From positions 1-61,028 of the forward strand of contig ONNV01000012.1 of assembly GCA_900319225.1 (NCBI GenBank): a stretch of 61,028 bases of DNA, written 5' to 3'. The stretch comes from an uncultured Prevotellaceae bacterium (lineage in GTDB: Bacteria; Bacteroidota; Bacteroidia; Bacteroidales; Bacteroidaceae). The notes under the pieces were generated by a model. That model did no database searches, was not told the DNA's origin, and was given only the letters and a program-made list of their open reading frames with translations. Of the stretch, positions 26,046 through 48,963 are shown one piece after another. The translations under genes and the position numbers were made by a program. How positions within the stretch are numbered: position 1 is the stretch's first letter; each line of letters starts with the position of its first letter.

Positions 26046-26068
26046 GTCACACATAATAGTTCAGGTTA

Positions 26069-32073: not shown

Positions 32074-34107
32074 TCATTCTCCTATCAAAGGCAGGAACCA
32101 GTTCTTACTGTCCTTAAGACGATTGTAAAGGGCTCCGTCCTTAACTGAATAATCCTCATCCTCCATAGTAGCGGTACTACGTGACGCTACTCTCTTGGCC
32201 AGGAACTCTGTATCATAAAGACCTGAAGTTGCGCGGTGCATTGAGATACGCATAAGGTCACCGAATCTGTAACCCTCAAAGCATGTCTCCAGACCCATCT
32301 CATCAATCAGGTACTCCTCAACAGCCAGGATAGACTTTTCAACTCTCTGTAAAGAGTCAAGTCCGGTAGTGTCAATGCCCATCTTGATAAGCTTGTTGTC
32401 AATTGTGTAACGCTTATCAAAGGCAGCATCACCGCAACCTCTTGAGTGGATACCCATGGTGTTTCCGCCATCAATATGTGAGTTTACTCTAATGATAGAG
32501 GCGCCGTCAATTGTTCTGGAAACAGACTCAAAGTCCTCACCCATAGGACTAACCCTCTCAAGGTCATAACGAACCTGCTGGAAGCCTGCGTTATTCTGGC
32601 CACGACTGTATATCAGGAAGTTGGTGGTGTTTACCGTACCGGTTGTATCCTCCATCCAACTCAGATAGTCTATGCCGAATGACTTGGCTTGCTCAAGTTC
32701 ACTGGGACAAGTAAGATAAAGAGCTATTAATTCATCATCACAAAGGCCTGATTTAAGGATAGCAAATGCCATCTGGGGGCATCCAGCCCTATTCAATGCC
32801 TCTGCAAGCCTCAAATATACGACATCATTACGGTACAAACAAATTTTTTCAGGATTAATTTTAATTAACTTTTGTTCAACCAAACTAATATTTGAGGAGG
32901 TGTACTCATCGACAGTCCTGTTCTTCTTGGTGAGGATTGTCTGGAGACGGAGGTCACCGCGACGCAGAGTATCAAGCTGGTCATACTTGTTGGTCATATA
33001 CTGACAGGAGTCAATGATGGTACCGTTGGTCTTACGGTCCTGGAGGTTAATCCAGTGATAGCAGTAATCCTGACGTGAACTCAGACTTGTCAGTCCGTTA
33101 GAGCGGGTAAGCTGATACCAGTAATCATTATCTACGGATGAATTGAAGATATTGGGCAGGTCACTTACAGTGCCGCTGTACTCATCAATCTCCATAGGAA
33201 TGTAGCAGATAGGCTTGGCATTGTCACCAAAGGTTGATGAGTAAGTGTCACCGTTGGGATCCAGATAAATCCAGTCACCGCCGAACCATGTTACACGACC
33301 TGTACCGGTTGTAACCAACTTGTCCTCATTACCTGAAAGATAGTCATGATAGTACTTGGCGGCCTTGCCATACTGCTCTGACCAAAGAGCCAGGTCACCC
33401 ATGATTATGCGGACAGGAATAAAGAACTGTGATGATGTATGGGTGGCAGACTTGTCACCGGTACCGGTAGTCTCACCGCCCAGCTCACCGTAGCTGGGGG
33501 GCAGCTCATCAATGAAACGCTCCTCAAAATCGGTAAGAAGGGTATCTGCAATCTGCTTGATGTTAAGCTTGGGCAGTTTACTCTTGTCGGCATCACTACC
33601 GCTCAGGATAGGTTTGGTAGTGAAGTATACATCACCGTAAACCTGTGCAAGCTGCAGATAGGCCCAAGCTCTGAATGAGAGGACTGCAACATACTCACGC
33701 AGGAACACGTTCTTGCGGTTACGTGTATATGCGGTATCGGCATGAGCCAGGAAATAGTTACAGTTATTGATTACTGCGTAGTAATCAGTAGGATTGTTGT
33801 AACGGTTTGTCTTGGACAGGTTCTGGAAATCATACCTGTAGAGCTCTGCCAGATCCTTATTGGCATGGCTGGATGTAGCAACAAGATCACCTCTAACCTC
33901 ACCCAGTAAGACACTGCGATCAGCTATCTTTTGCATGGTCTTGATAATACCCAGAACTGAGTAAACAGTATCTGTAGCCTGATCCAAAGTGTTCTCATAA
34001 TCATACAAGACAATCTTTGAATCAACCTTGAACATATCCTCGCAGGAGGTAGCGGCCATAACAGTCAATGCCATCAGAACCGCCGATATAGTATTCTTAA
34101 GTTTCAT
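32074..34107 (-). CDS. susD: SusD/RagB-family outer-membrane lipoprotein (second pair)
   Basis: 677 residues, longer than usual for SusD. The lipobox is AATSC (Cys22). TPR-type helices characteristic of SusD are seen in DYYAVINNCNYFLAHADTAY and EYVAVLSFRAWAYLQLAQVYGD. The C-terminal part shows the usual SusD sequence YLRLAEALNRAG and YRFGDLMRISMHR. SusD proteins cap the SusC barrel and capture oligosaccharides. It starts 15 bases after its SusC partner ends. The substrate is inferred to be arabinoxylan from the GH43 neighbours. Confidence 0.92.
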   Translation of the reverse strand: MKLKNTISAVLMALTVMAATSCEDMFKVDSKIVLYDYENTLDQATDTVYSVLGIIKTMQKIADRSVLLGEVRGDLVATSSHANKDLAELYRYDFQNLSKTNRYNNPTDYYAVINNCNYFLAHADTAYTRNRKNVFLREYVAVLSFRAWAYLQLAQVYGDVYFTTKPILSGSDADKSKLPKLNIKQIADTLLTDFEERFIDELPPSYGELGGETTGTGDKSATHTSSQFFIPVRIIMGDLALWSEQYGKAAKYYHDYLSGNEDKLVTTGTGRVTWFGGDWIYLDPNGDTYSSTFGDNAKPICYIPMEIDEYSGTVSDLPNIFNSSVDNDYWYQLTRSNGLTSLSSRQDYCYHWINLQDRKTNGTIIDSCQYMTNKYDQLDTLRRGDLRLQTILTKKNRTVDEYTSSNISLVEQKLIKINPEKICLYRNDVVYLRLAEALNRAGCPQMAFAILKSGLCDDELIALYLTCPSELEQAKSFGIDYLSWMEDTTGTVNTTNFLIYSRGQNNAGFQQVRYDLERVSPMGEDFESVSRTIDGASIIRVNSHIDGGNTMGIHSRGCGDAAFDKRYTIDNKLIKMGIDTTGLDSLQRVEKSILAVEEYLIDEMGLETCFEGYRFGDLMRISMHRATSGLYDTEFLAKRVASRSTATMEDEDYSVKDGALYNRLKDSKNWFLPLIGE

Positions 34108-34122
34108 TTTTACTAAATTCTA

Positions 34123-37100
34123 TTAGAGGTTAATCTTAAGTCCTAATGAGAAGTTGGTTGACTGAGGCAGCAAACCACGGTCTACACCACGGGTCAGTAT
34201 GTTGTTACTTGATGAGAACTCAGGATCTGAACCCAGATACTTGGTAAGAGTAAACAGGTTGTTTGCAGAACCCCAGATGGTAACTCCCTGCAGATAGGTG
34301 CTGCGGATAGGAACTGAGTAACTCAGGGTTATGTTCTTAAGACGCAGGTATGAGCCGTCCTCAATCCAACGGTCTGAGAAACGGTTGTTTCCGTGAGGAT
34401 CACCAAATGATGCACGGGGAATATCAGTCTGCTGTCCCTCGGCAGTCCAACGGTTTGTCATAGCAACAGTCTGGTTCATGAAACGTGAACCGCTCTCAAG
34501 CAACATACGCTGGTAGTTGTAGATATCACCACCTACAGAATAAGTGAATGTAGCACTGAGTGAAAGGTTCTTGTAACCGAACTTTGTAAAGATACGGCCG
34601 TAGAAATCAGGATTGGGATCACCGATGATGGTCATATCTTTCTCATCGATGACATTGCCTGCATCGCCGTCAACATTTACGAATCTAACATCACCGGCTA
34701 CGAACGGGGTGTCAACACCGGTGTCAGATACCATGTGCAGGCCTGAAGCCTTGGCATCGGCATCGGTAGAGAATACACCTGCGGTCTTATATCCGTAGAA
34801 TACGCCTACAGGCTGACCAACCTCCGTGCGGATTATACCGTCGCAGTAGTTGTACTCAACAGCGTCACCCGGCAGAGCGGTTACCTCATTCTTATAGTGT
34901 CCTATGCTGGCACCAGCCTCCCACTTGATGAGTTTGTTGTTAAGCAGCTTAACATTAAATGAAGCGTCAAATCCCTTGTTTGAGAGAGATCCACCGTTAC
35001 TCCATGTCTCAGGCAGACCGGTAAGATATGAGAGTGAGCTGATAGAGAGCAGGTTGTCAGTATTGCTGCTGAATACGTTTGCAGCTACATTGACACGGTT
35101 GTTCCACAGGTTCATCTCAATTCCGGCAGTGAGCTTGGTTGTGGTCTCCCACTCAAGAGTGGTGTTACCGATATTGGCCAGAGCAAGACCGTTCTTACCC
35201 AGGATCTTTACAGGTGAGAAATAACTCTTGGAAGCTGAATCATCAAATCCGTCATTACCGGTAATATCAAAACCTGCATTTACCTTAAGATAGTTGATGA
35301 AACCTGCATTGAACCAAGGCTCAGCTGAAACAACCCATGCACCGGCTACTGAGGGGAAGAAGCCCCATGGCACACCGAACATCTGTGTTCCGTTTGAAAC
35401 GCTTCCGCCGAAACGTGATGATGATGATACACCAAGACTGGCAGATACGTAGTACTTCTCCATATAGTTATAGTCACCCTGAGCCCACCATGTCATAGAA
35501 ATATCCTTGGTGTCTACACCGTTGGTGTTCTTGTACTGGAGTGAACTGGTCATGTTAGGAGTCTTATCGTTACCTGAGTTGTAACCGGTCATTGAAACCT
35601 GATAAGTTGAATTGTTCAGATAACGGACACCACCACGTACATCGATGTCATGAGCTCCAAGACGTCTGTTATAGGTAAGGTATGTATCACTGCTGAATCC
35701 GTCAGACTTGGCGTTCATAGCAGAAACACTGTTGTCAATACCCTTACCTACACCCTCAAGATCAAAGCTGGGAGTACCGTAAAGAGGAGTGTAGTAGTTC
35801 TCATCGGCGTTAACCAGAGTATAAGCAAAGTGCTCATAGAGGTTAAGTCTCTTACGCTTTCCAAGCTGGAATCTGGGAGTAAGAGAGAGTGTGATCAGAC
35901 GGTTTCCGAAATAGTTCTTGTTGATACCCTCGGCATTCTTAAGAATTGACAGCGGGTTGGCAAGTGAAGCCTTGTCACCCAGAACCTCCTTAAGATAATC
36001 ATCCTCCTTTGAAAGGTAGGGAGTAAGCTGACCGTCGTCATCATAAGCATAAGGTGACAGGAACGGAGACTTGATGAATGACAGGAAAGCAGGTGAGTTG
36101 ATAAGGGCGTTATCAATATGCTCAGGAGCACCGTCATCACGCAGGTCACGGGTAATATCACTGTAGTTTGCATCAAAGCGGAGAGTGATACGGTTACCCA
36201 GGATAATATCAGAGTTAAGGCGCAGGCCAAAACGTGTGAAATCATTGTCAACCAGTGTAGCATCACCCATGGCATAACCTATGGAGAGGTTGTAGTTGGC
36301 TATTTCATCACCACCCTGAACGTTCACGTTGTAGTTCTGGATAAATGCATCCTGGAACACATCCTTAGTCCAGTCAGTATCATTGTGATAAGAGTTGTAG
36401 TAGAAATAGTTGGGGTCATTCTGCAGGAACTTGAACACGTTCATGGTAGTACCTGTAGTACCCAGCAGCTCTGATGTGTAAGCTCTGTACTGGCTTGCAT
36501 CCATCATGACAGGCAGCTTAGGCATGGTCTGGAAACTACCTATAAGATTAACGTCAATCTTGGTGGCCATGCTCTTGTTACGTTTACTGTTGATAAGGAT
36601 GACACCATTGGCACCCTTGGCACCATAGATACCGTAACCGTTCTTAAGAACCTGGACAGACTCAATATCCTCAATCTGGATGTTGGCCAGAAGGTTGTTA
36701 TAGAATCCGTCATGCATGATGGTACGGTCATAACCCATATCTACAATAACACCATCCAGTACAACCAGAGGCTGTGTGTTGATGTTGAGAGAGTTGATAC
36801 CGTCAATCTGCATGGCAGCACCAACGCCTATCTGACCTGAACGGATGATTGAGAGGACACTACCCTGCAGTGACTGCTGGATCTGATTGTCAACCTCAAT
36901 GTCAGCACCCAGATTGGCTATACGTGCACCCTCAGAACTGGTGGCCACGGTCTGGTTTGAGTAGATCTCTGAGAATACGTCAGAGAACAACTTTACGTTT
37001 ACATCATCTACACGACCGTTAAGAGGGCAGACCATTGTGTTGCATCCCTCAACAGAGAATATGAGAGATGATACATAGTCAGGCAACTTTATTGAGTAGG

Positions 37101-37329
37101 AGCCGTCACCCTTGGTCATTGTAGAATGGAGGGCGTTGTTGTAGGCCTGAACCTTGACACCCGCCAGGGGAGTGCCGTCGGCTGCATCGGTCACGAAACC
37201 TGTAACTATAATCTCATTGGATTCGGCCTGGGCAGAGGCTGGAACAGACATGAACATTAACATGCCGGCCAGACTCAAACGCACAAACTTTTTTACGAAT
37301 ATATTCATATTGCTAAGCTTTTTTATCAT
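34123..37329 (-). CDS. susC: SusC/RagA-family TonB-dependent transporter (second pair)
   Basis: 1068 residues. After the signal peptide (VPASAQ, about residue 34) a carboxypeptidase-regulatory-like domain reads VTGFVTDAADGTPLAGVKV. A plug domain with VQVLKNGYGIYGAKGANGVILINS follows, then a 22-strand-type barrel ending FSLGLKINL. It imports oligosaccharides with TonB energy. The first ATG (37329) overlaps the upstream FAS1 stop by 4 bases (ATGA), favouring coupled translation; ATG 37308 is an alternative. It forms the middle of a FAS1-SusC-SusD unit. Confidence 0.93.
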   Translation of the reverse strand: MIKKLSNMNIFVKKFVRLSLAGMLMFMSVPASAQAESNEIIVTGFVTDAADGTPLAGVKVQAYNNALHSTMTKGDGSYSIKLPDYVSSLIFSVEGCNTMVCPLNGRVDDVNVKLFSDVFSEIYSNQTVATSSEGARIANLGADIEVDNQIQQSLQGSVLSIIRSGQIGVGAAMQIDGINSLNINTQPLVVLDGVIVDMGYDRTIMHDGFYNNLLANIQIEDIESVQVLKNGYGIYGAKGANGVILINSKRNKSMATKIDVNLIGSFQTMPKLPVMMDASQYRAYTSELLGTTGTTMNVFKFLQNDPNYFYYNSYHNDTDWTKDVFQDAFIQNYNVNVQGGDEIANYNLSIGYAMGDATLVDNDFTRFGLRLNSDIILGNRITLRFDANYSDITRDLRDDGAPEHIDNALINSPAFLSFIKSPFLSPYAYDDDGQLTPYLSKEDDYLKEVLGDKASLANPLSILKNAEGINKNYFGNRLITLSLTPRFQLGKRKRLNLYEHFAYTLVNADENYYTPLYGTPSFDLEGVGKGIDNSVSAMNAKSDGFSSDTYLTYNRRLGAHDIDVRGGVRYLNNSTYQVSMTGYNSGNDKTPNMTSSLQYKNTNGVDTKDISMTWWAQGDYNYMEKYYVSASLGVSSSSRFGGSVSNGTQMFGVPWGFFPSVAGAWVVSAEPWFNAGFINYLKVNAGFDITGNDGFDDSASKSYFSPVKILGKNGLALANIGNTTLEWETTTKLTAGIEMNLWNNRVNVAANVFSSNTDNLLSISSLSYLTGLPETWSNGGSLSNKGFDASFNVKLLNNKLIKWEAGASIGHYKNEVTALPGDAVEYNYCDGIIRTEVGQPVGVFYGYKTAGVFSTDADAKASGLHMVSDTGVDTPFVAGDVRFVNVDGDAGNVIDEKDMTIIGDPNPDFYGRIFTKFGYKNLSLSATFTYSVGGDIYNYQRMLLESGSRFMNQTVAMTNRWTAEGQQTDIPRASFGDPHGNNRFSDRWIEDGSYLRLKNITLSYSVPIRSTYLQGVTIWGSANNLFTLTKYLGSDPEFSSSNNILTRGVDRGLLPQSTNFSLGLKINL

Positions 37330-39038
37330 TCAAAAACCGGTTCAAGTATAATGCAGTCCAACCACATTTTCTTGGTCAGGTCATTACCCTTATTACTGTT
37401 AATTGTCAATCTCAACTTTGGAGTTCCGCTCTCATAGTTTCCGTAAGGCATCTCAAATGACTTGTCATGAACTTTTGCAGTAGTACCGATGATAATGGTA
37501 TCCGGAACATACTTTGTGGTACCTACATTGTAGGTTATAGTCTTGGATTTATCCTTACCGGTATAAAGAACCTGGGGAGGATTGGAGAGATACTCAATTC
37601 TGAATGAAGCCTTGCTGGCCATATCCTCCTCAACATTACGGAAGAATACCACCTTGATACGGTATTTACCCTTAAGTGTATTGGCGATAGCGTAGTCAGC
37701 TGACCAGGTAGTTGCAAGGTTTGAGACCTCCATGACACGGGCCCACTTGTAGGTGCTGTCCTTGGTCATATACTGAGCTGACTTGGGTCTCAACTGCCAG
37801 GCATCACCGGGAAGAATGATATTCTCAGCCTCAATCTTGATAGTACGACGGAACACTGAGTCTGAGTAAGGCCAGTTGTCACTTACGTAGATGACACCGT
37901 TACTGCAGACAATAGAGTCAATTATACCCTTCTTGGTTGCAGGATTATAGTCAGCAAAGATGCCACCGTCTTCATAAGGCTTGGCGAATACATGATAGGG
38001 ATACTTCTCAGTCATACGCTCTGACCACCTGAACTGGGTAGAGGTAGCTGAATCCTGCAGATGTTTCTGATTCCTGTTAAAGAAGGCATCAGTAATCATG
38101 GCTATATTGGTCCAGTAGTTCTTCAATGAGTCTGCACCCTTGATTGAGGTTTCATACTCATAATAAGCGCTGATAGCTTCATATACTGAATCCCAAGTCT
38201 CAGGTCTGGGCAGCAGAATAATGAAGTTACTGTCCTCAACGTCAATATAACCGTATTTCTTGAGTACTGAGTTTGACCTGATGATAACCTTGTCAATATA
38301 GGTGATCTCACCGTTCTCATCGGCATCACCCTGGATACTGCGCTCCTCATCAAGTTCCTCTCTGGTAAACTTGGCAAGCCACTTGCCTAACTCACCCTTA
38401 CGGTTGACATAGTCAAAGTCATCACCTTTGGCACTCTTGATAGTATAAGCACCGGTAATATAGTCATACAGGTTAGGTCTGTAAACAATATGTCCGCTAA
38501 GAATATGCAGGATACCGTTTGTGCAACGCTCATTCTTCTGCTGATATCCAACACCACCAATTGACTCATCAACAGAACGATAGGTCTTGTTGCTCATCAT
38601 CTTGACACGCTCATGGGTCTCAGAACCAACCGGGTGGCTGAAACGTGCTATATGGTTAAGGATGAACTCTGTTCCAATCTTTCTGTGATCCTTATTTTCA
38701 TCATCGATATCCTTTGTATACTCTGCCCACTCAGCATCAGACACTGATGAATTAAGAGGCAGCCAAACGGTAAGGAACTGATTGTCATTAAGGAAATCCC
38801 AATATGTGAGGATAGACAGACTGTCTCCGATGAACATATAGGTGGACTTAAGAGTCTCAACGAACTTGCTTGCCTCCGGGATAGCGGCAATAGTCTTGCC
38901 GAGTGAGGCAACAGACTCGTTTCCATCCGAGTGAACGCTGTAATGGTCCTTCCAGGTATCACTTTCACATGATGCCATAACCACCACAGACATTAATCCA
39001 AGAACGGACTTAGTTATCAGTTTGATATATTTATTCAT
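37326..39038 (-). CDS. FAS1-domain lipoprotein of the second Sus unit
   Basis: 570 residues, lipobox VMASC (Cys24). Two FAS1-like units are visible: the first has FLTVWLPLNSSVSDAEW and NGILHILSGHIVYRPNLYDYI; the second has FIILLPRPETWDSVYEAI and SNGVIYVSDNWPYSD. From about residue 400 a beta-sandwich follows (RIKVVFFRNVEED, KLRLTINSN, KKMWLDCIILEP) reminiscent of carbohydrate-binding modules. It takes the place normally held by a surface glycan-binding protein, but upstream of SusC. Translation of SusC is coupled to it. Confidence 0.82.
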   Translation of the reverse strand: MNKYIKLITKSVLGLMSVVVMASCESDTWKDHYSVHSDGNESVASLGKTIAAIPEASKFVETLKSTYMFIGDSLSILTYWDFLNDNQFLTVWLPLNSSVSDAEWAEYTKDIDDENKDHRKIGTEFILNHIARFSHPVGSETHERVKMMSNKTYRSVDESIGGVGYQQKNERCTNGILHILSGHIVYRPNLYDYITGAYTIKSAKGDDFDYVNRKGELGKWLAKFTREELDEERSIQGDADENGEITYIDKVIIRSNSVLKKYGYIDVEDSNFIILLPRPETWDSVYEAISAYYEYETSIKGADSLKNYWTNIAMITDAFFNRNQKHLQDSATSTQFRWSERMTEKYPYHVFAKPYEDGGIFADYNPATKKGIIDSIVCSNGVIYVSDNWPYSDSVFRRTIKIEAENIILPGDAWQLRPKSAQYMTKDSTYKWARVMEVSNLATTWSADYAIANTLKGKYRIKVVFFRNVEEDMASKASFRIEYLSNPPQVLYTGKDKSKTITYNVGTTKYVPDTIIIGTTAKVHDKSFEMPYGNYESGTPKLRLTINSNKGNDLTKKMWLDCIILEPVFE

Positions 39039-39054
39039 AATGCTATTGTTTTAG

Positions 39055-40779
39055 TTATTTGGCTTTCTGGATAACCTCATCAGTGCGCTGGTAAGCAGGA
39101 TTCTGCTTAAGCTTGTCATTGATCTTTATCTCTTCCTTATTGAGGGGCAGGAACAGACCGTAGGGGTTATTGAACTTGATCTCAATAGACCTGGTGTTAC
39201 CCTCATACTTACCCTGAACAGCGGTAAAGATATCCTTTGACTGACCGTTACGCATAGCCTGTCTAACCAGGTCAAACCAACGCTTGCCCTCAAAGAGGAA
39301 CTCACGGCGGCGCTCATCAAAGACAAGCTGCTCAAAGTCTGATACAGTCTTGTAATCCTCAATCTTAAGGCTGGGAGCAACTGTAATCTGCTCCTTACCG
39401 ATAGCACGGTCATAAACCGCACTGATCAGCTCAAAGGCATCATTAATGGCCTTAGTGGAGTCTGCGGCATTGGCAAATCCTGACTCCTTGGCCTTCATGA
39501 TCAGAGCCTCGGCCTGCATGAGCATTACCTCTGTGTAACGGTAAATGATCCAGTTGGGGCTGCCACCGTTTGACTGACGTACAGCACCCGGACGGTTGTT
39601 GTTCTGAGTACCGGTAATTGTAAGGGTACCTCCGTCAAGTTTGTAGTCCATCTTCTGGTATACATACTTTACGATACCGTAGTAAGAACCGGACTTGAGC
39701 AAATCCTCATGATAACGGGTATCATAGACAGTCTTGAATACGGATGTTCCGTCACCTATCTTACCTATCGGGGTATAAGCCTTTACCCTACCGGTTGTAG
39801 GATTGGATCCGTTGTAATAATTGGATACAAAGTTGCTGGACCTGTCAGTTCCGTAAGGCAACTCAAACAGGGACTCAAATGAGTTTCCGCTACCGAATAT
39901 CTCGTTATATGCAAGACCTGACTGATTCTCACCGTCAGTTGTCTTGATAAGAGGATACTTGTCATACATAAGAGATATGTTGAGTGATGTACCCTTCTGC
40001 TCAAGGAGAGTCTGGTAATCAACTCTCTTTACACTGTCCACATACTGGCAGCACTTGATGCAGTTGTCCCAGTCACCCTTCCACAGATACATATCGGCAA
40101 GCATCGCGTAGATGGCGGCACGTGTAAAACGTGATGAGTTGGCTGCATTGGTAAGGTCTTTCTTAAGATGCGGCCATGCCCAGTCCTTTACGCGGTCCAA
40201 GTCATAGATAAGTGAATCCAGAACCTCATCAAACGGAGTCTGACCGATAAAGAAGTCATGGGTATCATCAATTGAAGGAATGGTTACATAAGGTACATCC
40301 TTGAATGCACGCATCATGTACCAGTAGCACAGAGAACGGATGGCAATAGCCTCAGCCTGATGTGCACGTAACTGACCTCCACGATAATTAGGATCCTTCT
40401 TGTGAACCTCGGGGGCAAAGTGAAGGACCGTATTGGCGTAGTTGATGGTCTTATAGAAGCAGAGGTATGTGGTGAGCTCATTGTTCTCATTGATGTTCTC
40501 ATCAATAAACTTATTGAGGTCATCACTGCTCTGTGTGTTGTCTGTTCCGGATACGATATTATCTGAGCGGAACTCACCCCACGCTGCCATTCTGAGCTGA
40601 CAGTCTGAAGACTCAAGGGCTGCATATGCACCGCGGAGAACACTCTCTACGTCAGACTCATCTGTCCAGAAGTTTTCCAAAACCACCTCATTAAGAGGCA
40701 TCAGTGTGAGGAAATCATTGCAAGATGAAACAGTGAGTCCCATCATTGCCACAAGTATATATGATTTGATCTTTTTCAT
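39055..40779 (-). CDS. susD: SusD/RagB-family outer-membrane lipoprotein (first pair)
   Basis: 574 residues with lipobox TVSSC (Cys20). The text is classic SusD: NDFLTLMPLNEV, RGAYAALESSDCQ, AEAIAIRSLCYWYMMRAFKDVPYV, YTEVMLMQAEALI and FDERRREFLFEGKRWFDLVR. It lies 18 bases downstream of its SusC and 16 bases upstream of the next FAS1 gene, so the whole set reads as one transcript. It would bind xylan-derived oligosaccharide at the cell surface. Confidence 0.95.
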   Translation of the reverse strand: MKKIKSYILVAMMGLTVSSCNDFLTLMPLNEVVLENFWTDESDVESVLRGAYAALESSDCQLRMAAWGEFRSDNIVSGTDNTQSSDDLNKFIDENINENNELTTYLCFYKTINYANTVLHFAPEVHKKDPNYRGGQLRAHQAEAIAIRSLCYWYMMRAFKDVPYVTIPSIDDTHDFFIGQTPFDEVLDSLIYDLDRVKDWAWPHLKKDLTNAANSSRFTRAAIYAMLADMYLWKGDWDNCIKCCQYVDSVKRVDYQTLLEQKGTSLNISLMYDKYPLIKTTDGENQSGLAYNEIFGSGNSFESLFELPYGTDRSSNFVSNYYNGSNPTTGRVKAYTPIGKIGDGTSVFKTVYDTRYHEDLLKSGSYYGIVKYVYQKMDYKLDGGTLTITGTQNNNRPGAVRQSNGGSPNWIIYRYTEVMLMQAEALIMKAKESGFANAADSTKAINDAFELISAVYDRAIGKEQITVAPSLKIEDYKTVSDFEQLVFDERRREFLFEGKRWFDLVRQAMRNGQSKDIFTAVQGKYEGNTRSIEIKFNNPYGLFLPLNKEEIKINDKLKQNPAYQRTDEVIQKAK

Positions 40780-40797
40780 ATTATCCTACCTTTAAGA

Positions 40798-43700
40798 TTA
40801 GAATCGTACTGAAACATTGAATGAGACTTGTCTTGCACGAGGAGTCTGTGCGTTATCCTTGGCAACGCTACCACGGCCACCACTACCGGCACTCTCAGGA
40901 TCCAGACCTGAATACTTGGTAAAGGTGAGAACGTTGTTAAGGTTAGCTGTGAACCTGATGTTGCTTACGTGCAGCTTCTTTACAAGCTTAGGATCAAGGC
41001 TGTAACCGAGGTTAGTACTTGTCCAACGCAGGAATGAACCATCCTCTACATAACGGTCAGAACCAAGGTAGTTGTAACCGTACTGGTTAAGGGCACGAGG
41101 CATAACGGTCTCATCACCCTCAACACGCCAACGCCAGTTAACGGCAGCTGATGTATTGTCGGTGTTGTACATTGCCTCGGCATTCATACGTGAACCGTTT
41201 ACGATTCTGTTACCGTAACGGAAGCTGAAGTTGTTACTCCATGAGAGACGTCCCCAGCTGATATTGAAACGGAAACCACCGTTCAGTTTAGGAAGTGAGC
41301 TACCCAGGTAGACGATATCAAGCTCATTGATGTTACCATCATAGTTGATATCCTCATAGATGGCATCACCACCCACGAACTCATAGTTGGTACGACCTGT
41401 ACCATAGTCATACATCATAGGACGGGTGTACATTACACCGTTCTTCTCAACTGCAATGACATTACCGTCTGCATCTCTTGCAACAGGAGCGTTAGGTCCG
41501 CTTACGCCGGGATCCTCAACCGCACTCCACTTGCTGTACTGATATACACCATGGCTCTTGAAACCGTAGATAGAACCGAATGCATTCTTAAGAGCTACAT
41601 ATGAGAGGTATGAACCGTTCTTGTAGTTAAAGTCATTGGTCATCTTCTCAAGCATGGTAGGATTCATCTCCAGAATCTGGTTGGTGTTGTCGGCAAAGTT
41701 AATACCGCCGCCAAAGTTGAAGTCCTGACCAAGGAGTCTGGTTGAATAGATACGGTTTGCATCGATACCCAACTCCCAACCCTGGTTACGGATCTTACCG
41801 CCGTTAACAACTGACAGTGAGCTGAAACCTGATGATGAAGGAATAGAATAACCGGAGTTAAGCAGATTAGATGTAATACGGTCATACCACTGAACGTTTA
41901 CACTGATCTTGTCGCGGAAGAAACCTAAATTAAGACCTATATCATAAGAGTTGGTCTCCTCCCACTGCATGGTGCTAAGACGGATATTGTCAGGTTTCAT
42001 TGAGGTCTCACCCATATAGGAGTCACCGCTTGAATACTTACTGTAGAACATACCGTCACTACCGGGAGAGTTACCCTGCAAAGCCCAGCTACCGGTGATA
42101 CCCAACATACTCAGGTATCCGGCTCTTGCTATGCCCTGCATGAATTTCTCATCAATTACGTTCCAACGGGCTGAGACGCTGGGGAATGTAGCCCAACGGT
42201 TAGCATCACCGAATCTGGTGTTACCGTCAGTACGCCATCTGAAGTCAGCAGAGTACTTACTCTTATATGAGTAGTGTATAACACCGGAGATACCAATAGT
42301 ACGGCTGCGGCTTGCACTGGTAGTCATGTTGTTTACATTACCCGGAAGAGCTATAGACTCAAACTTGCTGGGGATACCTGACAGGCCACCGCTCTGGCTC
42401 TTACCGTTACTCATACGCAACTCATAGTTCAAGTTCACCATGACGCTGTGGTTGGGGTTATTCAGGTGAGGTATGAACCTGAGGCTGTGGTTTGTAGTGA
42501 TATTGGTATTCTTGCTGGAGTTAGCTGAAACGGAGTTGGCATTGCTGTCAGACCAACCGTTACGGGCCAGACTCTGAGGAGTGTAATTGTCAGTATTATC
42601 GTTTGATACGGTAAGGTTTACACTACCGTTATATGAGAGCTGAGTCTCACCGGCCTCCAGTCCAAGAAGGTTGTACTTAAGTGAGAAAGTAGAACCAATG
42701 TTGAGTGAGGTGTTTGAATTACCCTTCTCATGAGACTCTGCAACAGGGTTAGTGTTCTTAGGCAGGTTCTCATTTGCTGTAGGAAGCATGTGATAGTACT
42801 CACCTGTAGACTCATCATTCTTATCCTCGTAGTAGATGGCCAGGTTAGGCATCATCTTCATGGCGGTACCGATACCTGTAGAAACACCACTACGCTTTGA
42901 GTAGGTCATGTTGAAGCTGGTTGATACCGATATACGCTCTGATATGAAGTAGTCCAGGTTAAGACGGTTTGTGAAACGGTACATCTTCTGACCGATCACA
43001 GAAGCCTCCTGATCATCAAAACCGGCAGAGAGGTAGAAGTTAGCTTTCTCACCACCACCGTCAACTGTAACCTGATGTGAATGCTGCAGACCAACCTGCT
43101 CTACGGCACCTACCCAATCAGTATTGTTGTTGTACATGCGGTACTCTGAGAAATCCTCAACATAGTTGATCTCTTCAATACCGTCAACCAGAGTGGCATC
43201 CATCTTAGGATTAAAGAAGGCCTCCTTAAGATACATGGTGTACTGGTCACCGTTAAGGAGCTTGTAGCCGAGAGGCTGCCACTGGGCGTTCATACGATAT
43301 GAGTAGCTTACACGAGTCTTACCGCGTGTACCACGCTTGGTCTTGATCTCCAATACACCGTTTGCACCACGTGAACCGTAAAGAGCGGTTGCAGAGGCGT
43401 CACGCAGAACGTTGATGGTTGCAATATCGTCAGGATTGATGTTAAGAAGCTCTGACACCTTCTCAGTATTCTGAGACTCATTGGTGTAGTCAAAGTTGTT
43501 CTTAAGGTTGCTCTCAATTTCCCAAATGATACCATCCACTACGATCAGCGGGTTGGCATCACCTGTCATTGTTGCAACACCACGAAGGTGCATGGTCGAA
43601 CGGGCACCCAGGTCACCTGAGTTGAATACTACGTCCAGACCTGGAACACGACCCTGAAGAGCCTCATCGACCGTGGTGATGGCGTTATCCTCAAACTCAG

Positions 43701-44127
43701 ACATATCAATGGTAGTTGTAGCGATACTCATCTCACGGATAGGAATAGGCAGAGGACCCTCAGCTACCTTCTCGGCTACGATATCAACAACATCAAGAGT
43801 GGTGTTGTCCTTCATCGTAATCTCAAAGTAGGTCTTGTTGATGGGAATATCTACTGTCTCATATCCTACGAATGATACTACAAGTCTGTCCTTAGGATTC
43901 TTAAGACGGAATGAGAAGTTACCCTCCATATCTGTGGTGGCCATATTCTGGATACGACCGGTAGCATCCTTCTCTACTACGTTAACCAACATCATAGGGC
44001 CGTCGGCATCCTCAATGACACCACTGATGATATCTCCGGCATTCTGGGCAAAAAGCGAACCGGACATAAAGACCATAGCCGCTGCCAAAGCCCCCTTAAA
44101 TAATCTGTTTGTATGTTTCATCTTCAA
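40798..44127 (-). CDS. susC: SusC/RagA-family TonB-dependent transporter (first pair)
   Basis: 1109 residues with signal peptide 1-28 (GSLFAQ). A carboxypeptidase-regulatory-like domain follows (about 33-115), then a plug from about 130 to 270 with VDEALQGRVPGLDVV, LIVVDGI and SATALYGSRGANGVLEIKT, and a beta-barrel ending RQVSFNVSVRF. This is the canonical SusC build. It begins 12 bases after the four-unit FAS1 protein ends. With SusD (39055) it makes the first of two importers, probably for differently sized or decorated oligosaccharides. Confidence 0.95.
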   Translation of the reverse strand: MKMKHTNRLFKGALAAAMVFMSGSLFAQNAGDIISGVIEDADGPMMLVNVVEKDATGRIQNMATTDMEGNFSFRLKNPKDRLVVSFVGYETVDIPINKTYFEITMKDNTTLDVVDIVAEKVAEGPLPIPIREMSIATTTIDMSEFEDNAITTVDEALQGRVPGLDVVFNSGDLGARSTMHLRGVATMTGDANPLIVVDGIIWEIESNLKNNFDYTNESQNTEKVSELLNINPDDIATINVLRDASATALYGSRGANGVLEIKTKRGTRGKTRVSYSYRMNAQWQPLGYKLLNGDQYTMYLKEAFFNPKMDATLVDGIEEINYVEDFSEYRMYNNNTDWVGAVEQVGLQHSHQVTVDGGGEKANFYLSAGFDDQEASVIGQKMYRFTNRLNLDYFISERISVSTSFNMTYSKRSGVSTGIGTAMKMMPNLAIYYEDKNDESTGEYYHMLPTANENLPKNTNPVAESHEKGNSNTSLNIGSTFSLKYNLLGLEAGETQLSYNGSVNLTVSNDNTDNYTPQSLARNGWSDSNANSVSANSSKNTNITTNHSLRFIPHLNNPNHSVMVNLNYELRMSNGKSQSGGLSGIPSKFESIALPGNVNNMTTSASRSRTIGISGVIHYSYKSKYSADFRWRTDGNTRFGDANRWATFPSVSARWNVIDEKFMQGIARAGYLSMLGITGSWALQGNSPGSDGMFYSKYSSGDSYMGETSMKPDNIRLSTMQWEETNSYDIGLNLGFFRDKISVNVQWYDRITSNLLNSGYSIPSSSGFSSLSVVNGGKIRNQGWELGIDANRIYSTRLLGQDFNFGGGINFADNTNQILEMNPTMLEKMTNDFNYKNGSYLSYVALKNAFGSIYGFKSHGVYQYSKWSAVEDPGVSGPNAPVARDADGNVIAVEKNGVMYTRPMMYDYGTGRTNYEFVGGDAIYEDINYDGNINELDIVYLGSSLPKLNGGFRFNISWGRLSWSNNFSFRYGNRIVNGSRMNAEAMYNTDNTSAAVNWRWRVEGDETVMPRALNQYGYNYLGSDRYVEDGSFLRWTSTNLGYSLDPKLVKKLHVSNIRFTANLNNVLTFTKYSGLDPESAGSGGRGSVAKDNAQTPRARQVSFNVSVRF

Positions 44128-44139
44128 TTTATTTACAGA

Positions 44140-47100
44140 TTAGAAATTAACTTCGCCGTTACACAACGCACCGTCGATAAGATGGATTACAGCGTAAGAT
44201 GATGTCTCCAGCTTTGAAGTAGGAACATTGGTCAGCTCCTCTGATGAGGTGCTGCTGTAATCATTGGAATACTTCTTGAATACGTATTCACGGCTCATGA
44301 TATTCCAGTAAGGAACGAGACCGTTCTTAACCTTCTGTACCTTTCTTACGTGACCCTTGGCATCGGTTACGTAAATGTCAGAACCTACATTAACTCTAAG
44401 CTTAGCGAACTGCTTGCTCTTGTTAAGGTAAGCGGTCTCATAATCGGCAGTACCCTGGTTGAACTCAGCATTGGTGTATACTGAGTTATCCTGGATATGG
44501 TACTTTATGAAGTTTACAAGCTCATCACACTTGACATTGATGAAATCATTCTTGAACGCGGTTGAATCATAGTCATCATCATCATCATTGGCAAAGATGA
44601 GAACGGGATCACTGGGATCAACTGTCTTGTTGAGATAAGTTGTATAGAAGATATTCAATGAATCTACCCATGCAGCGCTCTTCTGGTTGTCGGCAACATC
44701 ATCATGAATATGCCACCATGCAGCCTTGCAGATGCTGTCCCAAAGGTTCAGGTCATAGGGGCTGTAGATGATACCGTCTTTGAGAAGTCTCTTGATAGAG
44801 TCATTCTGCGGTACGTAAACTGTATAGTTATAGGTGTTGAATGAAGATATGCACTTCTTTGAGCTGATATCCAGATCACCGTAACGGTCAGCAAATACGC
44901 CCTTGCCGTCACTGTTCTCAGCCTTTACCATCAATTTGAAGAACTCCTTGAACTCAGGATAGTTGGTTGAGTCTGAAAGGATGTCATAAACTGACTTTCT
45001 TGATGTCTGCAGAGGACGGTTGATAACGTATGTGATACCGTTACCGTCACTAGCTGTCATATCAAAACGCTTAACGAACTCAATCGGCTGTCCCTGCTCA
45101 ATCTGCCATCCACCGGCAACCTGCAGCATGCTGATATCCTGATCGGGATCCTTAGTGTCAACGAATGTAGACTTGTTGAAACGGATAGCACCGCCACCCT
45201 TAGTGCGGAAGTATGCGAAACCATCGGCTCCCTCAAACTCACCGCTCTCAAGAGCGTCATAGTTCTTGTTGTTGAGCAGGATAATATGGTAATCCATGAA
45301 ATCCTCAAGACGGTTACGCAGGAATGTCTCATTTGAAATAGAAGAGGTGTTGACCTTGTTTCCTATAGAATCCTTTGCAGCATCGTAGGTGTAATAGTCA
45401 GCCTTTACAGTCTTGGCAACCTCATCATAATAGAATGCCAATGCATAGAGTGCATTGTTGTCCTTGTCAACATCAGAGGGATCAAGCTTGTTGAGAGCGA
45501 ATGATGAAGGATCAATCCAGATAAGTCTTTCCTGGGTTGTCTCATTCTCATCATTGAAGTTAACCTGCGGGAGGAAAAGGCTATAACCTGACTGCATCGA
45601 GTTCAGGTAGTAGCTGAATGACATCTCCTGATCCTCAATAGCCCAGTTAAGAACCTTAAGCTTGTCATTGATAAGAGCAGGATAAGAAACTGCCTTATAA
45701 GCTGTAGGAACGAATACCATATCACTGAAGTAGATGGCACCGTTGCAGCACATAACTACAGGATTGTCCATGTAGTCAACCTTGAAGTGGTCAATGGCAG
45801 TGCTAAGATCTGAGAAGAATGCATCCTGAGCGTCATTCATAACATCACCGAACTTACTGGGAACGGTGCTTGTGAATGAAGCGAACATGTTATTGTTGAT
45901 AAGCTTAACGATAACGTTAAGGTCAATCTCGCTCATATCCTCAGCAACCTCCTGAGCGGTCCACTGATTGATATCATTGGTGAGCTTGGTCTTGTTTGTA
46001 CCGTACTTGGTCCTCATTTCCTGACCAAGAGCAGTCTGCAGCCACCATCTCATCATAGCAGAGTCAGTAGGAACGAACATTACGGCCATATCCTCCTGCA
46101 GGGCTACGTCATCCTCTGCGCTTGAAGAGATGAAGTATGAGTTCCATCCCGGATCAAACTTAAGTACTGAAGACCTCTTGAATGCACGACCCTTACCGTC
46201 AACTGCAAGTGTATCCTTGTCCTGATGGGCAGCCTGGAAACGACCTGAGAAATACATCTTGGTAAATACAGAGTCCTTACCGCCTACGCCAAGAGCGTCT
46301 GCAATGACAGAACCCTCGGGACCGTAGTAGTCATCATTGAGAAGGTCTCTAACCTTCTTGGCTGTTGCGGTACCGATATGGTCTGTATCATAAGCCTGGT
46401 TCCTGTTAGGAATGAACGGGGCTGAGAAACGCTCGATGATAGAGCTGTAGATGATTGAGTTAGAGAAACCGTTCTCATCAGTCTGTGACAGATACTCAGC
46501 CATGCTGGGGAGCAGATAAACCACATCCTCCATTACATGGATAAAGCCGTTGTAGCATTTCTTGTTCTGATACTCAATCCTTACGCCGTTTACGCTGGCA
46601 TCCTTTGACTGACGTCCGGGCTTGCCGCTCTTGCTGTAACCGCCAAGGTTGAACAGGAAGTTGTAGTCATCATCGGTAATCTTCTTGGATGAGAGGAACT
46701 CAGGAGCAAAGAAAATCATAGGCTTCCTGGTTCCGTCCTCCAGGATTACGATACCTGAAGATGCACGGTTGGGGTTGTTTCTTACATAATCCCAATACTG
46801 TGTCTTAGGCATATCCTCCTGCTTGAGTACGCGTACTGTATCATACTCACTCATGGTTGATACACGGCGCATGCAGTCTCCAAGTCTTACACCATTCTCA
46901 GTAGATGTGTTGGAGAGAGAGGCGACCTGGAACACATTGTTAAGCATTGAACCTTTAAGGATCATCTTTAACTGGGCCTTGCTCAGATCCTCAAACTTAA
47001 CCTTGGCACCACCTGCTATAGGACACTTGTCAAGGAATCTCTGGAATGCAGAGTCATCAGCCACGAAAAGAGTTCTACTACCTGTACGGGAGAGGATGCT

Positions 47101-47334
47101 CTTCTGATCAAGAGTATCGATCAACCTAACAAAGTACTTGAAGGAGTACTTCTTTCCGGTATCATCCTTGAAACCATCTTCCAGGGTCTCATAGATACTG
47201 GTACCTAGCCATTCAGGAAACTCCTTATCCAGATTATAATCAGGGAAACATGACCATAAACCGGATGATACGACCAGCGCCGAGATGATCACACCGATCA
47301 GGCCGGAGCGGTTTTTGGAATTGTTTTTTCTCAT
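44140..47334 (-). CDS. Large FAS1-domain lipoprotein of the first Sus unit
   Basis: 1064 residues, lipobox GLWSC (Cys29). I count four FAS1-like units from the repeated opening and closing motifs: SRTLFVADDSAFQRF with NGFIHVMEDVVYLLP (about 65-275), AVMFVPTDSAMMRWW with NGAIYFSDMVFVP (290-545), YSLFLPQVNF with NGITYVINRPLQ (550-775), and YTVYVPQNDSIKRLL with YAVIHLIDGAL (780-1055). It is twice as long as the other two FAS1 proteins of the window. Position before SusC suggests an extended surface protein presenting or capturing polysaccharide; binding has to be inferred. Confidence 0.82.
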   Translation of the reverse strand: MRKNNSKNRSGLIGVIISALVVSSGLWSCFPDYNLDKEFPEWLGTSIYETLEDGFKDDTGKKYSFKYFVRLIDTLDQKSILSRTGSRTLFVADDSAFQRFLDKCPIAGGAKVKFEDLSKAQLKMILKGSMLNNVFQVASLSNTSTENGVRLGDCMRRVSTMSEYDTVRVLKQEDMPKTQYWDYVRNNPNRASSGIVILEDGTRKPMIFFAPEFLSSKKITDDDYNFLFNLGGYSKSGKPGRQSKDASVNGVRIEYQNKKCYNGFIHVMEDVVYLLPSMAEYLSQTDENGFSNSIIYSSIIERFSAPFIPNRNQAYDTDHIGTATAKKVRDLLNDDYYGPEGSVIADALGVGGKDSVFTKMYFSGRFQAAHQDKDTLAVDGKGRAFKRSSVLKFDPGWNSYFISSSAEDDVALQEDMAVMFVPTDSAMMRWWLQTALGQEMRTKYGTNKTKLTNDINQWTAQEVAEDMSEIDLNVIVKLINNNMFASFTSTVPSKFGDVMNDAQDAFFSDLSTAIDHFKVDYMDNPVVMCCNGAIYFSDMVFVPTAYKAVSYPALINDKLKVLNWAIEDQEMSFSYYLNSMQSGYSLFLPQVNFNDENETTQERLIWIDPSSFALNKLDPSDVDKDNNALYALAFYYDEVAKTVKADYYTYDAAKDSIGNKVNTSSISNETFLRNRLEDFMDYHIILLNNKNYDALESGEFEGADGFAYFRTKGGGAIRFNKSTFVDTKDPDQDISMLQVAGGWQIEQGQPIEFVKRFDMTASDGNGITYVINRPLQTSRKSVYDILSDSTNYPEFKEFFKLMVKAENSDGKGVFADRYGDLDISSKKCISSFNTYNYTVYVPQNDSIKRLLKDGIIYSPYDLNLWDSICKAAWWHIHDDVADNQKSAAWVDSLNIFYTTYLNKTVDPSDPVLIFANDDDDDYDSTAFKNDFINVKCDELVNFIKYHIQDNSVYTNAEFNQGTADYETAYLNKSKQFAKLRVNVGSDIYVTDAKGHVRKVQKVKNGLVPYWNIMSREYVFKKYSNDYSSTSSEELTNVPTSKLETSSYAVIHLIDGALCNGEVNF

Positions 47335-47367: not shown

Positions 47368-48402
47368 TTATTCCTTATCAATACCCTCGATGGTCTTGAT
47401 CTTGCCCTGGGCATCGTACTCTATCTCGCAAACCTTGAGGCTGCGCAGCCAGGACTTGCCGCCAGAAGGTACGCTGTCATGATGGAACAGATACCACTTG
47501 CCCTTGTACTCAATGATTGAGTGGTGGGTTGTCCAGCCAACAACAGGAGTAAGGATTACACCCTGATATGTGAAAGGACCGTAAGGATTGTCACCGGTAG
47601 CATAGCACAGCAGATGGCTGTCACCGGTAGAGTATGAGAAGTAATATTTTCCTTTGTATTTGTGCATCCATGAAGCCTCAAAGAAACGATGGGGATCATC
47701 GGCCTTGAGGGGGTTGCCTTTCTCATCAACAACCAGGATTGGACGCGGAGCCTCTGCAAAATTCAGACCGTCCTTGGTAAGACGTACGCAGCGGCTGGGA
47801 AGAGCATCCTCCTTGCCCTCGGGCAGGTAGGGAGTCTCAAGATGAATGTTGTCTTTGTAACGCTGAAGCTGTCCGCCCCACAGACCGCCGAAGTATACGT
47901 AAACCTCACCGTCTGCATCGTCGCGGAAAGCGCACATATCGATACTGTAACTTCCTGCTACAGGTGCAGGATTGGGGATGAACGGACCCTCAGGACGCTG
48001 AGCGATAGCCGTTCCCCAGTGGAACACATCATTACGATCCTTCATGGGGAAGTACATGATGTAACGCTTGGTCTTCTTGCTGAATCCCATACCCTGTGCC
48101 TGCTCCTCTGCGTTGGTGGGTACCTCAATCTCGTACTCCTGAACATCGCAGTCCCAAAGCTGGCGGCCGGCCCATGGAATATCTTCCAGACCAATAACCT
48201 TGCCATGGTCTACAACCTGGCCATTCATGATGTCGTCTGTGGAAAGGACATGATAATCCTTCATGACATACTGGTCACCGTTGTCGTTCTCGACATTCTC
48301 ACACTCCCAGTCATGTGAAGGATAAATGTAAACCCTGCCGTTAAACACATGTACAGAGGGATCTGCCATGTAGTCAGCGGGGAATAAATAACGTTTCTTC
48401 AT
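47368..48402 (-). CDS. GH43 glycosidase without signal peptide (probably intracellular)
   Basis: 344 residues beginning MKKRYLFPADYMADPSVHVF, so the catalytic domain starts at once and there is no leader. Triad by motif: Asp14 (ADPSV), Asp155 (YSIDMCAFRDDADG) and Glu242 (RFFEASWMHKYKGKYYF). Single-domain GH43 enzymes of this form hydrolyse short xylo- or arabino-oligosaccharides after import. It is the first gene of the locus, 33 bases before the FAS1 gene, with a TAACTTTG box 47 bases upstream. Confidence 0.9.
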   Translation of the reverse strand: MKKRYLFPADYMADPSVHVFNGRVYIYPSHDWECENVENDNGDQYVMKDYHVLSTDDIMNGQVVDHGKVIGLEDIPWAGRQLWDCDVQEYEIEVPTNAEEQAQGMGFSKKTKRYIMYFPMKDRNDVFHWGTAIAQRPEGPFIPNPAPVAGSYSIDMCAFRDDADGEVYVYFGGLWGGQLQRYKDNIHLETPYLPEGKEDALPSRCVRLTKDGLNFAEAPRPILVVDEKGNPLKADDPHRFFEASWMHKYKGKYYFSYSTGDSHLLCYATGDNPYGPFTYQGVILTPVVGWTTHHSIIEYKGKWYLFHHDSVPSGGKSWLRSLKVCEIEYDAQGKIKTIEGIDKE

Positions 48403-48892: not shown

Positions 48893-48963
48893 CTGTCGTA
48901 CCCGGATTCGAACCAGGACAAACAGAACCAAAACCTGTTGTGCTACCATTACACCATACGACA
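48893..48963 (-). tRNA. tRNA-Gln (anticodon TTG)
   Basis: On the minus strand TGTCGTA pairs with TACGACA as acceptor stem. GGTGTAATGGTAGCAC is the D arm. The anticodon stem is ACAGG/TCTGT with loop TTTTGGT, giving anticodon TTG, and GGTTCGAATCC is the T arm. CCA is not encoded. It lies between tyrS and the polysaccharide locus, with its own terminator and a candidate TATATTTG box upstream. Confidence 0.93.

Follow-up and report, generated by a model that had tools for sequence, protein, structure and literature searches.

A conserved gene cassette of FAS1 lipoproteins and two SusCD pairs in Bacteroidota

The window analyzed here is a stretch of 61,028 nucleotides from an uncultured Prevotellaceae bacterium (contig ONNV01000012.1), within which two SusC-SusD (SusCD) transporter pairs are each preceded by a lipoprotein with FAS1 domains. 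The locus raises the question of whether this proximity is a local accident or the mark of a FAS1-based accessory module of SusCD import and, in the latter case, what the FAS1 proteins contribute. The comparisons described below identify a real and conserved arrangement of known protein families, which is a variant of SusCD import and, as far as searches of the open-licence literature reach, is undescribed. It probably encodes a two-transporter surface complex for capture and import, in which the FAS1 lipoproteins act as glycan-binding proteins.

The locus and its seven-gene relatives

Six genes follow one another on the minus strand in the order FAS1a-SusC1-SusD1-FAS1b-SusC2-SusD2. Intergenic gaps within this core range from -4 to 18 bp, with 18 and 15 bp between SusC and SusD in the two pairs, and a 4-nt overlap, ATGA, joins the FAS1b stop to the SusC2 start.

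44140 to 47334, minus strand: FAS1a, a lipoprotein of 1064 residues with four FAS1 units, which opens the cassette (Pfam Fasciclin, E 8.9e-13; AlphaFold model)
40798 to 44127, minus strand: SusC1, a TonB-dependent outer-membrane transporter (TIGR04056, 632.7 bits; SusC1 clade, support 0.998)
39055 to 40779, minus strand: SusD1, a lipoprotein (PF07980, E 2.3e-24; PF14322, E 2e-12)
39039 to 39054, minus strand: FAS1c site between SusD1 and FAS1b, empty here (comparison with genus loci and complete cassettes)
37326 to 39038, minus strand: FAS1b, a lipoprotein of 570 residues with FAS1 unit(s) and a CBM6-like beta-sandwich (fold of the model)
34123 to 37329, minus strand: SusC2, a TonB-dependent transporter (TIGR04056, 555.3 bits; SusC2 clade, support 1.000)
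32074 to 34107, minus strand: SusD2, a lipoprotein (PF14322, E 3.6e-9)

A sequence-only reading of this DNA had already drawn these genes, and its coordinates and its SusC, SusD and FAS1 identities are backed by TIGR04056, Pfam and structural models. Both SusC proteins are full-length and exceed the TIGR04056 cut-off of 368.25 bits; SusD1 is above the cut-off for both SusD families, and SusD2 is above that for PF14322 and slightly below that for PF07980 (20 versus 23.1 bits).

The locus is a derivative, minus one gene, of a longer cassette with the order FAS1a-SusC1-SusD1-FAS1c-FAS1b-SusC2-SusD2. Complete seven-gene cassettes occur at 80 loci (28, plus 52 from named genomes), a count that allowed a gene negative by hidden Markov model (HMM) in the FAS1b position and that used HMMs enlarged with 25 position-defined cassettes for locus annotation. 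After removal of loci whose SusC1 is more than 75% identical, 60 remain; one reason for preferring this thinned count is that at least one pair of loci, L219 and L153, look like the same record. Median gaps within complete cassettes are 8-23 bp. Between FAS1b and SusC2 the median across the 80 cassettes is 13.5 bp, with an overlap in 23 of 80 when starts are taken from the longest open frame, so that the ATGA overlap, from which translational coupling was proposed earlier, is present in the window but is not general. A FAS1 gene does stand before each SusC, as had been stated; the further statement that FAS1 genes do not follow the pairs fails, since FAS1b also lies behind SusD1 and two FAS1 genes lie there in the full cassette.

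By NCBI taxonomy, with one species looked up for each, the cassette occurs in the orders Bacteroidales, Marinilabiliales, Sphingobacteriales and Flavobacteriales. Complete cassettes are carried by Paraprevotella clara (L209, L250), Paraprevotella xylaniphila (L225, L233), Prevotella sp. P3-122 (L238), metagenome-assembled genomes (MAGs) of Paludibacter (L222, L224, L248, L255), Alkalitalea saponilacus (L218), Natronoflexus pectinivorans (L219), Algibacter miyuki and Algibacter lectus (L257, L258), Arcticibacter eurypsychrophilus (L262) and Pedobacter (L263, L265), as well as by three loci of other orders (L170-L172).

Closer to the window, relatives of FAS1b and FAS1a are present in 34 and 35 of 61 genomes, respectively, all within the window's genus (37 genomes, its own included); 24 genomes of other families, searched with the same sensitivity, yielded no relative of either protein. 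Over 35 regions drawn from 34 other genomes of the genus, the FAS1a-SusC1-SusD1 triplet is unbroken in 34 and the FAS1b-SusC2-SusD2 triplet in 31; contigs that are cut (L078, L084, L092) or genes that are split (L077, L087) account for the rest. FAS1c is found between SusD1 and FAS1b in 14 of the 35 genus loci (two others are cut before the site); a 658-residue protein of L093, which is unlike FAS1, was left out of the FAS1c sets.

The association extends to wider samples of genomes. A Pfam Fasciclin search of the order gave a match in 29 of 149 genomes, and 35 regions around weak-to-moderate matches comprise 25 complete cassettes and 32 with at least one FAS1-SusC-SusD triplet; the three lacking one are a cut region, a region at a contig edge and a lone FAS1 gene. 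A scan of named genomes with the FAS1b alignment (best 80 of 82 relatives) gave 52 complete cassettes, 75 loci with at least one same-strand triplet and five with none, although these loci cannot give the frequency of FAS1 absence because all come from one FAS1b-derived pattern. Among 16 picks from the class and phylum, three are complete, four have a triplet and 12 have none, with several showing FAS1 behind SusCD. Over loci chosen by FAS1, and with SusC matches above 400 bits on either strand, FAS1a directly precedes SusC1 in 103 of 111 cases and FAS1b directly precedes SusC2 in 107 of 116.

These last counts bear on the alternative that the FAS1 proteins are adhesins to plant fibre or to other cells and that the SusCD genes are merely adjacent. 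FAS1 domains are adhesive in eukaryotes, and the closest solved relatives of the cassette proteins are periostin and TGFBIp, which would suit such a role. Against it, the FAS1 gene stands right before SusC, a few bases away, at almost every locus, whereas none of five FAS1 genes with strong Pfam matches, taken as a contrast set, lies in such a triplet. We regard the adhesin explanation as unlikely.

A search that is blind to FAS1 agrees with the proposal of a FAS1-based accessory module. A SusD1 profile gave 34 matches at E ≤ 6.6e-82 in 18 of the 149 genomes of the order, of which 33 lie in regions with FAS1 genes flanking SusCD (complete, cut or variant cassettes), three of them ending before the gene upstream of SusC1 (L134, L138, L156). 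The 34th lies on a 3.3-kb contig that holds SusC1 and SusD1 only and is too short to judge. The next four matches (E 1.5e-79 to 2.1e-71) are SusC-SusD pairs without FAS1 before SusC, one of them having a weak FAS1c match (15 bits) adjoining SusD. As the profile was built from cassette SusD1 proteins, the result shows that this SusD lineage goes with FAS1, not that all FAS1 proteins go with SusCD. Applied more widely across the phylum, with three candidates scored per genome, the profile matched at E ≤ 1e-80 in 12 of 395 genomes, the window's own included; six of the 13 matches outside that genome were inspected (L170-L174, L179) and consist of three complete cassettes, one shorter variant and two SusC-SusD-FAS1 loci. 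The distribution is patchy, as if the cassette were often lost or transferred.

A chance local arrangement is ruled out by this recurrence, by the short gaps, by the FAS1-blind search and by the counting of triplets across Bacteroidales genomes, which the sequence-only reading had itself named as one check.

Several variant layouts accompany the cassette. Outside the order, L174, L175, L178, L179, L181 and L182 carry a single FAS1 lipoprotein after SusC-SusD, either directly or one gene on, a layout that may be an ancestor of the cassette or a parallel to it. In L146 the cassette is rearranged, with FAS1c ahead of FAS1a. Two MAG records titled Clostridium sp. (L239) and Roseburia sp. (L247) contain complete cassettes and are probably mislabelled or mixed bins, because SusCD is a Bacteroidota system.

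Two transporter lineages in one gene order

The resemblance of the two halves of the locus had been taken for a unit repeated twice. In a FastTree phylogeny of 81 SusC proteins, all cassette SusC1 proteins form one clade (0.998) and all SusC2 proteins another (1.000), the inner branching of the two clades is alike, and proteins of three loci taken as variants (L127, L136, L173) are sister to each. Judged from this tree, SusC1 and SusC2 are two separate old transporter lineages; the repeated unit gives way to a cassette of seven genes whose two SusCD pairs differ in lineage, and a recent local duplication of one triplet is ruled out by the placement of SusC1 and SusC2 in distinct clades.

The trees of the cassette genes also agree. 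Tree distances for the seven genes correlate at 0.84-0.95 over all 21 pairs, as compared with a maximum of 0.23 in permutation controls (200 per gene pair), and single genomes of the order sample hold up to nine SusD1 copies in one case and six in another.

It is quite possible that the locus encodes two SusCD importers that work independently on two products of one polymer, co-expressed in one operon, with each FAS1 protein serving its own neighbor and no joint complex being formed. Tandem SusCD pairs lacking FAS1 are known from xylan loci, such as xusA-xusB-xusC-xusD (PMC7848910), and the full length and distinctness of SusC1 and SusC2 would be expected of two self-sufficient transporters. 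However, a seven-gene order kept in 60 non-redundant loci of four orders is stricter than co-expression demands, and FAS1c and FAS1b lie adjacent between the two pairs. These two features weigh against this alternative.

FAS1 proteins and enzyme neighbors

FAS1a is readily recognized by sequence, matching PF02469 at 49 bits (cut-off 22), as do 20 of 20 members of its alignment. The Pfam sequence search found no Fasciclin match in the FAS1b of the window, although 11 of 16 members of the FAS1b alignment do match PF02469. In the AlphaFold model of FAS1a (pLDDT 77.9), residues 41-1060 align with TGFBIp and periostin, proteins that have four FAS1 units. The FAS1b model likewise contains the FAS1 fold, with a clear unit at about residues 36-197, followed by a CBM6-like beta-sandwich at residues 397-569 according to a fold search of the predicted model. 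The four units earlier assigned to FAS1a, and the sandwich and first unit assigned to FAS1b, are thereby recovered; the second FAS1b unit, extending to about residue 394, is visible solely through alignments to multi-unit proteins, at an rmsd of about 12. Mean identity among FAS1b proteins is 0.25 and 0.23 in the FAS1 units and 0.19 in the sandwich, and this higher conservation points weakly to docking by FAS1, with the sandwich suited to the substrate role.

A lipobox-like motif lies within the first 60 residues of FAS1a in 59 of 80 cassettes, of FAS1c in 54 and of FAS1b in 69, as counted by pattern on starts taken from the longest open frame and with some loci cut; the lipoprotein cysteine of the window's FAS1a was identified by eye. 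The solved structures nearest in sequence to FAS1a and FAS1b belong to FAS1 proteins from eukaryotes, cyanobacteria, red algae and Rhodobacter; the same search of solved structures returned no bacterial FAS1 relative from a SusCD locus, and the nearest relatives of SusC and SusD were other SusC and SusD proteins. A tblastn search of plasmids with FAS1b gave no match.

The surroundings of the cassette contribute the following features:

48893 to 48963, minus strand: tRNA gene just upstream of the operon (Rfam)
47368 to 48402, minus strand: GH43 directly upstream of FAS1a, with no signal peptide by eye (PF04616)
27593 to 31912, minus strand: protein of 1439 residues downstream of SusD2, exported by eye, without a Pfam or NCBIfam match
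26069 to 27424, minus strand: GH43 with CBM6 (domain match)
24420 to 26054, minus strand: GH43 with a beta-xylosidase C-terminal domain, GH43_C2 (domain match)
20023 to 22278, plus strand: stand-alone FAS1 lipoprotein of 751 residues, a FAS1c paralogue (Pfam Fasciclin, 2.3e-10; tree)
18515 to 19810, plus strand: GH8, paired with the stand-alone FAS1 gene (domain match)

The stand-alone FAS1 lipoprotein, which the sequence-only reading had listed as a third FAS1 lipoprotein, is real but lies outside the cassette. Relatives of this protein, in-cassette FAS1c included, occur in all 37 genus genomes. In a tree to which 29 other genomes each contribute their best match, it groups with stand-alone copies, while the in-cassette FAS1c of the genus joins that of other families (1.000), a grouping that rules out its being a relocated cassette FAS1c. 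By BLAST, a GH8 relative (67-95% identical) adjoins 27 of 29 stand-alone copies, and the 1.5-kb flanks of the 29 contain no SusCD match. The gene at 20023 is thus, to judge from the tree and its neighbors, a GH8-linked FAS1c paralogue outside the cassette, and it could be a stand-in for the absent FAS1c. At about 204454-210309 on contig C17 of genome G000, a second FAS1 lipoprotein, 56% identical to it, lies near a 1371-residue frame weakly similar to the FAS1b sandwich.

The upstream GH43 has a relative ahead of FAS1a in 34 of 35 genus loci. The protein is 96-99% identical in 21 of these 34 and a 70-80% version occupies the other 13, whereas SusC1 is just 57-77% identical in the loci where the GH43 is near-identical. 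Fourfold sites of the GH43 gene differ by about 0.4-0.5, like those of SusC1 (13 loci compared), a pattern indicative of extreme purifying selection; gene conversion or recent transfer as the source of a 98%-identical GH43 is ruled out, its fourfold sites being as diverged as those of SusC. Most genus loci have a relative of the 1439-residue protein behind SusD2, and Paraprevotella shows weak matches there; by eye, the C-terminus of this protein resembles a type IX sorting tail. The tRNA was the only match in an Rfam scan of the window, and scans for promoters and terminators gave 43 and 17 hits, as compared with 31.5 (sd 5.9) and 13.4 (sd 3.8) in shuffled sequence, and are uninformative.

In all, the window encodes three GH43 enzymes, a protein with an alpha-L-arabinofuranosidase-1 domain (GH51-type, as we read it), GH95, GH8 and an FGGY kinase; having SusCD with carbohydrate-active enzymes nearby, it contains a polysaccharide utilisation locus (PUL). 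Upstream of one P. clara cassette (L209) are an MFS sugar transporter, GH10, GH43 and GH67, by which this appears to be a xylan locus. Going by these enzyme neighbors, (arabino)xylan is most likely the polymer for this genome and for the P. clara locus. The arabinoxylan ligand suggested earlier is therefore plausible for this branch (GH43, arabinofuranosidase, GH8; P. clara) without being general: other cassettes lie beside GH2, GH3, GH28, GH29, GH31, GH35, GH95, GH106, GH115, M60 or a rhamnogalacturonate-lyase match. Among 67 of 81 downstream neighbors scanned jointly, the commonest families in the best 25 of 103 matched are FG-GAP (six), GH2 (four) and GH95 (three); about 50 neighbors were scanned singly. 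As we read it, the cassette is a reusable module whose cargo differs among lineages. Two of the three SusC proteins above the family cut-off in this genome (assembly 84.7% complete) belong to the cassette, which may therefore be its chief polymer importer.

RagAB imports peptides or glycopeptides. That the cassette imports such non-glycan cargo, with the enzyme neighbors being incidental, would fit the loci that lie near an M60 (L231) or S9 (L278) peptidase or near housekeeping genes. This explanation seems to us distinctly improbable given the glycoside hydrolases of 12 families that adjoin other cassettes (GH10, GH43 and GH67 in addition to the nine GH families just named) and the CBM6-like domain predicted on FAS1b.

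A possible mode of action and its relation to known systems

The proposed capture-and-import complex rests on gene order, conservation, agreement among gene trees, predicted folds and enzyme neighbors; surface location, glycan binding, physical association and substrate are the parts that we infer. The FAS1 lipoproteins would stand on the cell surface where Ig-type surface glycan-binding proteins (SGBPs) usually do. Their FAS1 units would dock onto the SusCD pairs or onto each other, and the C-terminal sandwich, which varies more and is CBM6-like in FAS1b, would grip the polymer. Surface enzymes would cleave the polymer, and SusC1D1 and SusC2D2 would take in the fragments. By analogy with the levan and dextran utilisomes (PMC7618045), lipoproteins seated on SusCD could hand the pieces to SusC.

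The utilisomes likewise combine a SusC barrel and a SusD lid with additional surface lipoproteins from the same locus, and their SusCD pairs are dimers. In them a single kind of SusCD occurs in two copies, together with one surface enzyme and one SGBP whose N-terminal domains are Ig-like (PMC7618045). The cassette, in contrast, has two kinds of SusCD and as many as three FAS1 lipoproteins, and it encloses no enzyme gene. Because two distinct SusCDs recur in fixed order, SusC1D1 and SusC2D2 may pair together. Tentatively, then, one can picture a mixed dimer of non-identical SusCDs held and fed by three FAS1 lipoproteins, with FAS1 serving as the scaffold and the sandwich ends setting the substrate, reused with different enzyme sets across several Bacteroidota orders; this more specific picture is possible rather than probable.

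Several observations weigh against the proposed complex. Genus loci without FAS1c indicate that not every part is required. In the fold search of FAS1b, Cry-toxin sandwiches score near CBM6, so that the sandwich fold is no proof of sugar binding. Gene trees track host descent as well, and the correlation among cassette genes partly reflects common ancestry, though single genomes hold many copies. Four loci (L213, L226, L236, L243) adjoin a tRNA ligase, LpxD, TPR or thioredoxin-type gene, and the one to three neighbors scanned at each include no carbohydrate enzyme, so the cargo need not be a glycan there. None of four genomes from other genera of the window's own family matches the SusD1 profile at E ≤ 1e-80, and other FAS1 lipoproteins are found behind a SusCD pair or apart from one.

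Among known systems, xusA-xusB-xusC-xusD-xusE-xyn10C shares with the cassette two tandem SusCD pairs and, in its case, a link to xylan (PMC7848910). The available text of that source mentions no FAS1 protein, and there xusE and a CBM-bearing GH10 directly follow the pairs; the cassette has FAS1 before each SusC, FAS1b between the pairs, and the 1439-residue protein and then GH43 after SusD2. No xusE with a CBM-bearing GH10 stands directly behind two adjacent SusCD pairs in the window. The pectin loci PUL5/PUL6 of Segatella copri also have two close SusCD pairs with genes between them, lie beside GH95, CE8, GH28 and GH43_10, and are upregulated on pectins, the second pair weakly (PMC11784079). 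They might be this cassette, though the text of the article mentions neither fasciclin nor FAS1. Tandem FAS1 folds are shared with the eukaryotic adhesion proteins periostin and TGFBIp, from which the cassette proteins differ in being lipoproteins inside a SusCD operon and in the CBM6-like end of FAS1b. The RG-II locus of B. thetaiotaomicron also has two SusCD pairs with uncharacterised genes between.

In accord with the earlier suggestion that the arrangement is undescribed, searching the full text of open-licence literature brought up no paper that treats FAS1 proteins together with SusCD. One study reports, for a single symbiont, a FAS1 gene with high transcription as well as two SusCD pairs, and draws no link between them there (PMC10199937).

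The cassette is carried by cultured species such as P. clara and P. xylaniphila of the human gut, and by genomes from rumen, horse and the environment. Gut Bacteroidota are known to take up fibre mainly through SusCD systems, whose accessory surface proteins have been examined at few loci. The cassette thus offers a defined gene set for asking why paired SusCDs exist and what bacterial FAS1 domains do.

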